From NCBI GenBank assembly GCA_945992055.1, contig CAMFVG010000110.1:1-64000 (forward strand): a DNA stretch of 64,000 bases, in the 5' to 3' direction. Position 1 is the stretch's first letter. Each line of letters begins with the position of its first letter. Under the pieces are notes generated by a model. That model was given only the letters and a program-made list of their open reading frames with translations, had not been told where the DNA came from and ran no database searches. The translations under genes and the position numbers were made by a program. Shown piece by piece: positions 9,252-32,207 of this stretch. This DNA comes from an uncultured Clostridia bacterium (GTDB lineage: Bacteria; Bacillota; Clostridia; Lachnospirales; Lachnospiraceae).

Positions 9252-9292
9252 AAAATGACCTCGAAAATTCATAAATTTTCAAGGTCATTTTT
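9252..9292. terminator. Bidirectional rho-independent terminator between the RluA gene and the radical SAM operon
   Basis: AAAATGACCTcGAAAATT-cata-AATTTTCaAGGTCATTTTTTT. Confidence 0.8.
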
Positions 9293-10559
9293 TTGATTTT
9301 ATTATTTGACACCTTATTAGTTCTTTCATCAATGTATATCCATTTTTAAAAGAAAGTGCCGATAAAACAAGTATAGTCAATAAGTTTATACTTTTATTCA
9401 CATCCAAGAATTCAGATACCCGTTTAGGAACAATGCAAGGAAAAAAGGTGTATGAATACCTTATTTTCTTGTTTATTACCTTTTTTACAACATTATCATT
9501 TAAGACGTATTGCTTAAATAACGGAAGAATATAATAATTTCTTTTGATTACTTCTAATTTCGTGTTTTTAGGATTAGCATTTGCATCAATGTTATTAAAC
9601 GCTGGTTTATCTGTATAGGAAGACATATGGCAACCGCCTTTACACAGTTTTCTCCATTTGCATCGTTTACACTCATGTGGTAACGCAAAATCGTTCTGCA
9701 TTTTCATTCTCTGACGAATACTACTAATATTTTCTTCGAAAATATTTCCATAAGTTCTGTTATCTTTTCCACAAAAACGAACATCTCCCTTACTGTTGAT
9801 AACAAAACTTTGTTCTCCTTCTATACCACAACCTTTTGCGAATATTGAAATTGCATCCTTGTTATCAATTGAGCAATATGCGTATCCGCCACAAGTTCGT
9901 ACTGAAATATCATACCTCTTTCTTATATCCACACATTTGTCAAAAAAAGTATTGAGTTGTTCATTGTCTAGAAGTTGATTTTCAATACTGTTATCTACTC
10001 CTATCGGCTTGGTCGCTCTGCTAAAATATATTGATTCTAAAGAATATCTGTGAATCAAGAAATCAGCAGTTGATTCCATGTATTGTAAATTCATTGACTG
10101 AACAACAATATTTATTAAAAAGTCAACACCATACTTATGTAATAAATCAAGACCTGCCACTACATTGTCGTATGAATTCATACCTGTTATTTTATAAAAA
10201 ATATCACTATCATTTGCAGGTACTGACACCATGACCTGAATATTACTTTTTTTTAAAAAATGTGCTATCTCCTCGGTAATCAAAGTGCCATTTGTAAGCA
10301 ATCTGACAAAAATATTCTGTTGGATAAATGTTTCAATAGATTTTTTTACTTTATCAAACACCAGCAATGGTTCACCACCTGTAATCGCAACAGATACAGG
10401 TTGAAAACTCAATATCTTTTCTGCTATTTTGTCATAATCATTTACATCTTCATTGCTAATTTCATTTGTTTTAAAATGGTTGTAACAGTAAAAACAATTG
10501 TGATTACAAGAATCAGTCACTTCCCAAGCTATATTATGATTTGTTATATGTTCACGCAT
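9285..10559 (-). CDS. Radical SAM/SPASM peptide- or protein-modifying enzyme (rSAM-B)
   Basis: SCNHNCFYCYNH (CxxxCxxC), AITGGEPLL, C-terminal SPASM-like CGIEGEQS...FCGKDN...CKRCKWRKLCKGGCHMSS. Start taken at MREHITNHNIAW, 1 nt after the stop of the upstream gene. Confidence 0.85.
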   Translation of the reverse strand: MREHITNHNIAWEVTDSCNHNCFYCYNHFKTNEISNEDVNDYDKIAEKILSFQPVSVAITGGEPLLVFDKVKKSIETFIQQNIFVRLLTNGTLITEEIAHFLKKSNIQVMVSVPANDSDIFYKITGMNSYDNVVAGLDLLHKYGVDFLINIVVQSMNLQYMESTADFLIHRYSLESIYFSRATKPIGVDNSIENQLLDNEQLNTFFDKCVDIRKRYDISVRTCGGYAYCSIDNKDAISIFAKGCGIEGEQSFVINSKGDVRFCGKDNRTYGNIFEENISSIRQRMKMQNDFALPHECKRCKWRKLCKGGCHMSSYTDKPAFNNIDANANPKNTKLEVIKRNYYILPLFKQYVLNDNVVKKVINKKIRYSYTFFPCIVPKRVSEFLDVNKSINLLTILVLSALSFKNGYTLMKELIRCQIIKSKK

Positions 10560-10560
10560 A

Positions 10561-10986
10561 TTAACAACATCCCGAACTACTCGTAAAAGAACAGCCCCAA
10601 CCATCATATGGATTTCTTCTATCAGAACCTGAACTTGAGCCAAAATCCACAAAAATCATAAGACAACCCATAATCAAGGAACTAATAATGTAATACACAA
10701 AAGAATAATTGCAGACACACATGACAAAAATCGCAAAAATTCCACCCATAATAAACGCCTCACTATGCTTTTGCACAGAACGTATAATCGAATACACAAA
10801 TATAGTTAATACAGGAATCACAATCGAAATTATGCACCATGTTTCTTTTGTCGATAATAAGTTCATGCTATTAAATGTTTCAAAGCTAAATATAAAAACA
10901 TTTTCTTCCAAAATAGAATAAGCCACCGCAAAAGAAAAAACACACAAAACCAATAAAATACTAAACCAAGTTTTTTTGTTTAACAT
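10561..10986 (-). CDS. Small multi-TM protein with Ser/Cys-rich C-terminal tail; putative substrate of the flanking radical SAM enzymes
   Basis: Starts MLNKKTWFSILLVLCVFSFAVAY with GGAGG 7 nt upstream; about four hydrophobic segments, then DFGSSSGSDRRNPYDGWGCSFTSSSGCC. Confidence 0.75.
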   Translation of the reverse strand: MLNKKTWFSILLVLCVFSFAVAYSILEENVFIFSFETFNSMNLLSTKETWCIISIVIPVLTIFVYSIIRSVQKHSEAFIMGGIFAIFVMCVCNYSFVYYIISSLIMGCLMIFVDFGSSSGSDRRNPYDGWGCSFTSSSGCC

Positions 10987-11015
10987 AATAAAACCTCCAT
11001 TTTCTATTTTATATT

Positions 11016-12035
11016 TTAAAGCAATGGGCAAAAAGGATCCGGAACATCATATTTCCCTTTTACCGCATAGGCCATACAACGGGATGCACCTAAACATTTG
11101 CTTTGAAAATCGCACCTTAAGCATTTATCACTACATCTATGCTTTCTCAAATCTACAAACACATCATTATTAAAATAAACCTCTGAAAGAGTCGTATTAT
11201 TAATATTTCCACAAACAATAGGCAATCTGCGACAAGGCATAATGTTGCCATACTCATCAACCGTTATTAGCGTTTCTCCTGCTTTACAAAAATATGGTGA
11301 ATCTTCAGAACCCAAAAATTGTAGTGCACGATAATTCTCTACTCGTAACCCTGATTCTTCATTAGCAGGATTTTCTTTTTCTTGTCTCAAAATACTAATG
11401 TATTGTGGCATTAATTCTGTGCTAATCGGTCGTATAAACTCACTTTTATAAACAGGAATATATCGATCGCTCCACAACGTGCTCACATGATACTTTCTGC
11501 AAATTTCTGCAATTATTGGAAAATCCGCAAAATTATCTTCATGCGCAGTAAACGACACTCTTGTTGGAACACCATTTTTATATAGCAATTGCAAGACTTC
11601 TATAACCTTACCAAAATTTCCATCACCACGGATTTCATCGTGTGTTCTTTCCGTTCCATCTATACTAACTTGAAAATTTTGAAACCTCTTGTTTTGTTTT
11701 AATAGACGTAAATACTCTGGTCGCACCAGCGTCCCGTTTGACATTATTACAAGAAAATATTTTTTTCTGCATACAAACTTTAGTATTCTTTTTATATTTT
11801 TATGTAAAAATGGTTCACCACCGGTTATTCTTAATTGTGGCACAATTGTCTCTGTTGGATATTCCTTTCCTAATGCCTTTATAAGCATGTCAAACTGTTT
11901 TATGACCTTTTTTATATCACTATAACTCATTTCAGACTGATGCTCGTCAATATAACAATGCTTGCATCGCAAGTTACATCTGCCTGTTATGTGCATTTGT
12001 AAAGAAATAACTCTAAAATCCTTCATATACTTCAA
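11016..12035 (-). CDS. Radical SAM/SPASM protein (rSAM-A)
   Basis: GRCNLRCKHCYIDE, LRITGGEPFLHKN, SPASM-like CRRLPIVCGNI...CSDKCLRCDFQSKCLGASRC. Confidence 0.87.
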   Translation of the reverse strand: MKYMKDFRVISLQMHITGRCNLRCKHCYIDEHQSEMSYSDIKKVIKQFDMLIKALGKEYPTETIVPQLRITGGEPFLHKNIKRILKFVCRKKYFLVIMSNGTLVRPEYLRLLKQNKRFQNFQVSIDGTERTHDEIRGDGNFGKVIEVLQLLYKNGVPTRVSFTAHEDNFADFPIIAEICRKYHVSTLWSDRYIPVYKSEFIRPISTELMPQYISILRQEKENPANEESGLRVENYRALQFLGSEDSPYFCKAGETLITVDEYGNIMPCRRLPIVCGNINNTTLSEVYFNNDVFVDLRKHRCSDKCLRCDFQSKCLGASRCMAYAVKGKYDVPDPFCPLL

Positions 12036-12068
12036 GACATGTCCTTATTTTTTATGATACTGTACCAA

Positions 12069-12100
12069 ATACCAAGCACCATCATGATGGTACTCGGTAT
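12069..12100. repeat. 32-nt near-perfect palindrome upstream of the radical SAM operon
   Basis: ATACCAAGCACCATCATGATGGTACTCGGTAT: 16 pairs allowing 2 G-U; no strong T-run on either side. Confidence 0.7.
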
Positions 12101-12125
12101 CTATCTTTTCAGTTTTAAAACACAT

Positions 12126-13793
12126 TTATATTTGGAAACATCCTCCACCAATAAACTCTTTTAACAAAGAATTTTGTGGCACATGTTCACTTCCGATTCC
12201 TACAAAATAATCTAAAAACTTCAATAATCTTTTTGCCTCTATATATTCCTCGCACTCTTTCTCGATTCCGAAAAGAACCGGCTCGGCATACTGTTTTAAA
12301 ACTGCCAACTCATAAATCAGTGCCGAATTAAACATGACATCAGCTTCTTCCTGATACGGGAAAATATTTTCTTCTTCTCCTCGTCTGACTGATGGCCACA
12401 TAGCAATTGTATTCCTTGCATTGGTTCCACGAGTTCTTGCATCACGCACCATACGACGCAACAATCTTCCGTCGGTTGTAGGAATCCGATTATGTTCGTC
12501 GATATTCAATTGTGTCAACGCACTAATATAAACTTTAAACTTATTCTCTCTTGGCAACTGGTAGGTCAATGCATCATTCAAACAATGTATACCCTCAATT
12601 ACTAATACATCCTGTTCACCCAATTGTTTTGGTGGCAATTTATACTCTCTCTTACCGGTTTTAAAATTAAAGGTAGGTAATTTCACCGCTTTTCCAGCCA
12701 ACAATTCTTTCAAATCTTGGTTTAATTGTTCTACATCTATCGCTTCCAAACACTCAAAATTGTAATTGCCATCCTTATCTCTTGGTGTTTTTTCACGATC
12801 TACAAAATAATTATCTACCGCTATCGGATGCGGAATCATTCCATGGGCACGAAGTTGTATGGAAAGGCGATGCGAAAATGTAGTTTTTCCAGAAGATGAC
12901 GGTCCTGCAATCAACACAAACTTAACATTTCCTCTATCTGCAATCGTTCTTGCAATATCACCTATTTTCTTTTCCTGTAAAGCTTCTTGCACCAAGATGG
13001 TTTCTTGGATCGTTCCTTTGGTGATTTCTTCATTCAAATCAGCTACCGTTTGAATGCCGAGCATATCTCCCCATTTACTTGATTCATCTAACACTTTAAA
13101 CAATTTTTGATGTGGTTCAAACGGAGGAACAACGGTTGGAGCTTCACATTCCGGCATCTGAATAACAAATCCTTCTCCATACAAATACAACTCAAAATAC
13201 TGCAGATAAGAAGCATCCGGAACCATATAGCCATAATAATAGTCTTCAAACTCATTCATACTATAGATATTCACTTTGGAAACACGACGGTATTCAAACA
13301 ATCGCTCCTTGTCTTTCATCCCATGCTTGCGGAATAAAGCGATAGCTTCATCTGTATTCACCGTTCTTTTCTTGATCGGCATTTTTTCTGCTATCATTTC
13401 ATGCATTCGCTTTTTTACACGCTCAAGAAATGTTTCGTCTATTTTCCATCCACCTGCAACAGTACAGTAAAACCCCTTGCTTACAGAAAAATCAATTCGT
13501 ACTTTACACTGTTTTTCATGTCCACAAATATCATGAATCGCTTTCACTAACATAAGACACATACTGCGCTTATAGGTTTTGTTTCCAACGGCGTCCCCAA
13601 CTGTAATAAATTTTAATACACAATCCTTTTTCAAGGTTTTTCTCAACTCGAATAATTTGTAATTTTCACACCCCAGTACAATTTGATGTTCATACTGTGC
13701 CTGAAAATCTTTTGCTATTTGTTCAAAAGTAGTGTCCTCTGCATATTCACGCACAATTCCATTTACTTGTACCTGATATGTGTTCTTATTCAT
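12126..13793 (-). CDS. Nucleoside (uridine) kinase family protein with TGS/ThrRS-like N-terminal region
   Basis: 555 aa; GPSSSGKTTFSHRLSIQLRAHG Walker A, PIAVDNYFVDREKTPRD; N-terminal TGS-like segment. Confidence 0.85.
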   Translation of the reverse strand: MNKNTYQVQVNGIVREYAEDTTFEQIAKDFQAQYEHQIVLGCENYKLFELRKTLKKDCVLKFITVGDAVGNKTYKRSMCLMLVKAIHDICGHEKQCKVRIDFSVSKGFYCTVAGGWKIDETFLERVKKRMHEMIAEKMPIKKRTVNTDEAIALFRKHGMKDKERLFEYRRVSKVNIYSMNEFEDYYYGYMVPDASYLQYFELYLYGEGFVIQMPECEAPTVVPPFEPHQKLFKVLDESSKWGDMLGIQTVADLNEEITKGTIQETILVQEALQEKKIGDIARTIADRGNVKFVLIAGPSSSGKTTFSHRLSIQLRAHGMIPHPIAVDNYFVDREKTPRDKDGNYNFECLEAIDVEQLNQDLKELLAGKAVKLPTFNFKTGKREYKLPPKQLGEQDVLVIEGIHCLNDALTYQLPRENKFKVYISALTQLNIDEHNRIPTTDGRLLRRMVRDARTRGTNARNTIAMWPSVRRGEEENIFPYQEEADVMFNSALIYELAVLKQYAEPVLFGIEKECEEYIEAKRLLKFLDYFVGIGSEHVPQNSLLKEFIGGGCFQI

Positions 13794-31624: not shown

Positions 31625-32125
31625 TTATCTACCACAACATTTTTTATATTTTTTTCCGCTACCACATGGACAAGGATCATTTCTTCCGATTTTCTTTTCC
31701 TTACGAATAGTTGTAGAATTTTTCTGCTCTTTGTATAATTCTTTTCTTTTTTCTTCCGTAAAAATAGCTTCCCACTGCGGTAGTTCATACAACCATTCTG
31801 CTTTCGCAGCAACCATATTTTTGTATAATTTTTCTTTGTCAAAAGCAAGGCTTACAACGGTATCCTCTTCCATCTCATCGATCGGATTCGGCTCTTTCAA
31901 ACTATCGTTAATTCCATCTAAAAATCCAGTCATGGTAAATACTTCGATTCCATATTTTTCAGCGAGTTCCTTTACGGTCCCCTTTACTTCTTCATCCGGA
32001 TTTGCTAGTAATTGTTCATAAATTCCTTTTTCAAGTTCAAAATAAGTCCCCCAGAATTGTTGCACTGTATTTTGATCCATATCGTTTGCATATGCTGTAT
32101 CACGCCATTCTTGTAATAATGCCAT
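31625..32125 (-). CDS. SEC-C metal-binding domain protein
   Basis: C-terminal [21 protein letters not shown]. Confidence 0.87.
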
Positions 32126-32207
32126 TTTCTCGTCTCCTTTATCCATTAAGTTACATCTTTTGTATCATATCATTGCTCATAATTTTGGTCAATAGCTTTC
32201 TTTCTCT

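Follow-up and report, generated by a model that had tools for sequence, protein, structure and literature searches.

Peptide-modifying radical SAM enzymes have been regarded mainly as producers of small released peptides. A related arrangement with a membrane-bound target has been described for MNIO (DUF692) enzymes and TIGR04222 proteins, in which the enzyme gene lies beside that of a multi-TM protein carrying Cys in a C-terminal Gly/Ser stretch, and for which in-place modification has been proposed (PMC12452194). In that work the TIGR04222 tails were predicted to be periplasmic, the thiooxazoles made by MNIO enzymes chelate copper, and radical SAM enzymes are named only in two reference titles (PMC12452194). 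The locus analyzed here differs in that MNIO belongs to another enzyme superfamily, its place being taken by SPASM radical SAM proteins, and in that the membrane protein is not a TIGR04222 member. Among SPASM radical SAM proteins acting on Cys, SbtM (TIGR04082) takes four hydrogens from its Cys substrate to give a thiooxazole (PMC11002830), though that substrate is a small (seleno)peptide. The ACGX system (TIGR04340) likewise has a target containing Cys and Gly, but this consists of its own short repeat peptides. In ranthipeptide, SCIFF, sactipeptide and HxsB/C systems, SPASM or paired radical SAM genes adjoin a Cys- or Ser-containing substrate, which is however a free leader-core precursor. 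DUF2207/LemA loci also resemble the present one, since DUF2207 is the platform of related enzymes and has a Cys-less Gly/Ser tail as its usual form; unlike these, our membrane protein shows no DUF2207 similarity. In the open literature searched we found nothing on point concerning radical SAM enzymes and membrane-protein tails, nor any link of radical SAM proteins to DUF2207 or of the enzymes treated here to DUF2207 or TIGR04222.

The window, a stretch of 64,000 nucleotides from an uncultured gut-type Firmicute of the Lachnospiraceae, contains a compact minus-strand cassette of three intact ORFs, found where the earlier note had placed them. The first, rSAM-A (11016..12035), encodes a radical SAM/SPASM enzyme of 339 aa; it is separated by 29 nt from the gene of a four-TM membrane protein of 141 aa, the presumed substrate (10561..10986), which in turn is followed after 1 nt by rSAM-B (9285..10559), encoding a second radical SAM/SPASM enzyme of 424 aa. 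The start codon of rSAM-A is TTG, with an ATG 9 nt further inside, and the membrane-protein gene starts with ATG preceded by GGAGG. Both edges of the cassette were located by eye. A hairpin followed by a T-run, AAAATGACCTTGAAAATTTATGAATTTTCGAGGTCATTTTT (9252..9292, minus strand), lies directly 3' of rSAM-B and is a probable cassette terminator, absent from the output of the consensus scan; at the other edge, an inverted repeat (12055..12110) separates rSAM-A from the udk-like gene and probably terminates transcription of the latter, upstream gene. The cassette has been inserted between rluD and this udk-like gene and is poor in GC, the trio having 31-34% versus 37-41% in the neighbouring genes. 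In five congeneric genomes (G009, G005, G001, G003 and G007) rluD and the udk-like gene adjoin at distances from 0 to ~750 bp, and no homologue of the trio occurs between them. The trio looks horizontally acquired, and order, phylum, viral and plasmid searches yielded no second copy. In agreement with what had been noted about the missing transporter, peptidase and immunity genes, no protease, exporter, immunity or RRE gene is present in the cassette. Elsewhere in the window, an ORF at 31625-32146 has a Cys-rich tail that looks like an ordinary SEC-C zinc motif, unrelated to the cassette.

Both enzymes passed the Pfam gathering cutoffs (Radical_SAM 75.1 and SPASM 30.1 bits for rSAM-A; 84.6 and 26.5 bits for rSAM-B), which bears out their reading as CxxxCxxC enzymes with SPASM-like C-termini. 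The CxxxCxxC motif lies at C20-C24-C27 in rSAM-A and at C18-C22-C25 in rSAM-B. The SPASM region of rSAM-A contains seven cysteines (250, 268, 305, 308, 314, 320 and 336) and that of rSAM-B six (244, 263, 297, 300, 306 and 310), the usual final-position Cys being missing in the latter. Neither protein reached a curated NCBIfam cutoff. The best model for rSAM-A was that of ACGX, with 126.9 bits versus a cutoff of 400, and its score with the SbtM model was 111.6 bits versus 350, covering only positions 196-515 of the 516 in the model. The best model for rSAM-B was NirJ2 (103 bits versus 500), while the PapB ranthipeptide maturase model NF047865, with a cutoff of 340, gave 96.0 bits for rSAM-A and 89.8 for rSAM-B. 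Named RiPP families were rejected for both enzymes, as all the NCBIfam radical SAM models, including such ranthipeptide, SCIFF, sactipeptide and HxsB/C models as appeared in the scan, scored far under cutoff. No short ACGX-repeat peptide is encoded in the cassette. A role in heme d1 or heme b synthesis (NirJ, Ahb) was discarded because of scores far under cutoff and the absence of heme-pathway neighbours, and viperin-like defence because the similarity was merely generic to radical SAM proteins. As the middle protein also lacked any match, the HMM search agrees with the earlier view that the trio lies outside the named families.

The 141-aa protein has four hydrophobic segments according to hydropathy, and the positive-inside rule predicts an N-in/C-in topology, so that its 27-residue C-terminal tail, FGSSSGSDRRNPYDGWGCSFTSSSGCC (10564..10644, minus strand), should be cytosolic, with some uncertainty as the TM3/TM4 loop is nearly absent. 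This tail, the presumed modification site, consists of G, S or C in 16 of its 27 residues and bears three cysteines (GCSFTSSSGCC). C-terminal tails with at least three Cys among their final 15 residues are uncommon: of 500 ORFs in the loci used for comparison 11 have one, and 9 of these 11 adjoin a gene of the rSAM-A clade. The window tail lacks the CSSCGGG repeat, and its Gly content is below that of the other clade-associated tails. The protein matched neither the DUF2207 nor the TIGR04222 family model, no close relative appeared elsewhere in the genomes searched, and its interpretation as a shortened DUF2207 was rejected (hhalign probability 0.9%).

The relatives of rSAM-A provide independent support for the tail as substrate. 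An order-wide search of 392 genomes retrieved six, 34-36% identical to it, each lying immediately 3' of a DUF2207 gene (PF09972 + PF20990) and overlapping it; the product of this gene ends in a tail with Cys in Gly/Ser, e.g. SSSGCGGGCSSCGGGCSSCGGGGSW. The closest relatives, 32-35% identical, all overlap an upstream gene for a Cys-in-Gly/Ser tail, borne either on DUF2207 proteins (GCSSCGGGCSSCGGGGSW; 10 intact and one relic) or on TIGR04222 proteins (GGGCGGGGCGGGCGG; two cases). In one of the six, the relic in G451, stops and frameshifts interrupt the DUF2207 gene, but the frame for GCSSCGGGGSW and the radical SAM gene are kept. About 2.4 kb from the latter lies an ORF (L015 4299-5012) with a J-domain-like start, NPYEVLGVSPNAS, and a Cys-rich tail, GGGSTCGTGNACCDLWCADSLCECMGGDLCSCM. 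One TIGR04222 case is a distant relative found in G961 when 398 genomes from across the phylum were searched with an alignment; there the enzyme gene overlaps that of a TIGR04222 membrane protein (128 bits versus a cutoff of 43; C-terminus GGGCGGGSDSGGGCGGGGCGGGCGG, tail GGGCGGGGCGGGCGG); G1055, a relative of G961, shows the identical enzyme/TIGR04222 arrangement. The most basal member of the clade (G1043, contig 29) lies downstream of the gene for a single-TM protein, whose long Ser/Gly tail, ending in GGSSGNDFGGCITWR, contains a single Cys and is predicted to lie outside. In most of the DUF2207 pairs the tail-gene stop overlaps the radical SAM start by 7 nt (ATG...TAA), which suggests translational coupling of both genes. 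The DUF2207 and TIGR04222 platforms are probably cousins, since the TIGR04222 protein P0005 (L071 4879-5952) and the alignment of the DUF2207 C-terminal domain look homologous and thus share a domain (hhalign 92%, E 7e-7). The earlier proposal that a membrane-protein tail is the substrate thus finds strong backing in these overlapping Cys-bearing DUF2207 and TIGR04222 tails. The further idea of two SPASM enzymes and this middle gene as a recurrent system did not hold, as the relatives of rSAM-A adjoin other membrane proteins and have no second radical SAM gene.

Several other arrangements were encountered. Two rSAM-A relatives (L072 5585-6908 and L073 6336-7654) have a PqqD-like partner gene in place of one for a tailed membrane protein and adjoin large membrane or propeller proteins. 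On L071, ORFs at 11473-13003 with repeated peptides (HVPRVRGGVP..., TPPRTRGT...) resemble a CRISPR array translated as if it were coding. A phage contig (L095 1-6000; IMGVR_UViG_3300010283_000006) carries a structural-looking ORF ending in INISASDSDGNCDCCGSDS and then four radical SAM genes; the last of these shows 33-36% identity to the tail clade, and a tail-protein gene lies in between. Three further IMG/VR phage contigs (L096 2680-4170, L097 3792-4979 and L098 3861-4976) encode proteins of 370-496 aa, of no known PHROG function, in which CxxxC repeats make up a huge region (CETGCEVSCEEGCEVSC...); two or three genes of radical SAM/SPASM type follow directly, and lysis-type genes come next.

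In order to count the association between tail Cys and neighbouring enzymes, DUF2207 proteins were collected with the PF20990 profile from the family (297 near-complete genomes) and from the pair-rich genus (29 genomes), Cys was scored in the last 30 residues, and the count was limited to proteins with a Gly/Ser tail. Ten had both Cys and an adjacent SPASM radical SAM gene, one had Cys and no such gene, none had the gene in the absence of Cys, and 35 had neither. One of the ten (G1045, contig 100) was taken from the radical SAM search, its contig being truncated. Fisher's exact test gave p=2.7e-9, a value that overstates independence because the genomes are related and nine of the ten positives come from one genus (plus one other). 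The sole exception, in G467 (L092 3245-4930), has a tail with two Cys (SDCGSSCDF / SDCGSSCDFSGGGD) and no adjacent radical SAM gene. G1043, G1045 and G1046 each encode a Cys-tailed DUF2207 protein with a radical SAM neighbour and a Cys-less one lacking it, so that these paralogues constitute a same-genome control. A better argument than the p value is that the pattern is common to four kinds of protein, namely DUF2207, TIGR04222, the Ser/Gly single-TM protein and the four-TM protein of the window.

In a tree of 25 proteins, rSAM-A grouped with the TIGR04222- and DUF2207-linked enzymes (support 93/85), and the parent node added the G1043 Ser/Gly enzyme (82/94); ACGX-, PqqD- and other RiPP-linked SPASM enzymes fell outside. 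The membership of rSAM-A in the tail-linked clade appears well supported but not beyond doubt, and its exact position is less sure than those of the other members owing to a long branch; even with its nearest relatives it shares only ~35% identity. A family-wide search with a clade profile gave 479-572 bits for clade members and at most 190 for all else, though the scores of rSAM-A and two other listed members are so by construction, their sequences being part of the profile. Among 17 lower-scoring loci checked, 16 had an enzyme 47-72% identical to the ACGX type, most with ACG-repeat peptides alongside. With SbtM, one of the closest named models, the enzymes of the DUF2207-linked clade scored 148-149 bits. 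As the four-TM protein is unrelated to the other platforms and yet bears the same type of tail, the enzyme clade seems to follow the tail, not the fold.

Taken together, these data make it reasonably probable that the cassette serves to mature a membrane protein in place, through iron-sulfur radical enzymes, one and perhaps two, that most likely remodel its Cys-bearing tail chemically. The membrane protein would be inserted with its C-terminus in the cytosol, rSAM-A from the same operon would bind the Gly/Ser/Cys tail and modify at least one of its three cysteines by radical chemistry, and the product of rSAM-B, encoded 1 nt past the tail gene, would probably introduce a further modification there. 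Once modified, the tail would remain on the membrane protein, as the absence of protease, exporter and immunity genes suggests. The C-termini of DUF2207 proteins have been described as lying inside the cell and containing Gly/Ser stretches (PMC10457818), which would leave such a tail within reach of a cytosolic radical enzyme. For TIGR04222 we favour cytosolic tails too, against the periplasmic prediction of the MNIO study, because of the domain shared with DUF2207_C. The chemistry could be a thioether crosslink or, as in SbtM, conversion of Cys to thiooxazole, and the modified tail might serve metal binding or redox sensing at the membrane. Cys-directed modification, possibly linked to metal or redox, is preferred since ACGX and SbtM are the nearest models and MNIO thiooxazoles chelate copper.

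The role of rSAM-B is the weakest link of this proposal, since the relatives of rSAM-A do elsewhere without such a partner. We found no close relatives of rSAM-B in 295 genomes of the order, viral contigs or plasmids; neither this enzyme nor the four-TM protein recurred in the genomes searched. Its nearest PDB match is the anaerobic sulfatase maturase. AlphaFold returned a confident partial radical SAM barrel, and the C-terminal 106 residues, mostly of pLDDT <50, were helical only. This uncharacterised extension of ~106 aa (residues 318-424) was considered as an RRE/PqqD domain and had no Pfam match. It is possible, if doubtful, that rSAM-A alone acts on the tail, rSAM-B having been carried along by chance in the insertion or acting on another substrate; the partner-free relatives of rSAM-A, the lack of a near relative of rSAM-B and the sulfatase-maturase match would fit this, but the gene starts 1 nt past the tail-gene stop, in the same operon and the same low-GC insertion. 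From that 1-nt spacing we argue that rSAM-B probably shares the tail substrate with rSAM-A.

SPASM radical SAM enzymes act most often on RiPP precursors, ACGX, as the nearest named family, has short peptides of Cys/Gly repeats for its substrates, and the window protein is small. It might therefore be a membrane-anchored RiPP precursor, whose modified tail is cut by host proteases and released as a bacteriocin or signal peptide. We regard this as unlikely, given the absence of protease, exporter, immunity and RRE genes from the cassette, the placement of the relatives' tails on multi-domain proteins of 525-615 aa, and the existence of the same Gly-rich tail without Cys and without enzyme. Still more improbable, although CxxC/Gly tails can bind metal without modification, is that the tail binds metal or forms disulfides as encoded while the radical SAMs act on something else, which would leave unexplained why their genes overlap just the Cys-bearing versions on unrelated platforms.

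On the reading that we prefer, in-place maturation, the cassette would extend known radical-SAM protein maturation with a tail-bearing membrane protein as target, and the sequence comparisons suggest that membrane proteins are decorated in place by a route not described before. More tentatively, a SPASM clade may be dedicated to cytosolic Cys-bearing Gly/Ser tails on any platform, whose Cys it would turn into a ligand or cofactor permanently tethered to the membrane, such as a thiooxazole or crosslinked Cys serving in metal or redox sensing; the window would then represent a two-enzyme version on a new four-TM platform, with two different radical modifications stacked on a single tail. The homology between TIGR04222 and DUF2207_C, if true, would unite two separately listed families. 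If the proposal is right, the tail clade extends radical SAM enzymes to permanent membrane-protein editing, in parallel to the MNIO/TIGR04222 proposal, and the poorly understood DUF2207, LemA and TIGR04222 proteins would gain a testable function, for which the Cys-less paralogues are natural controls.
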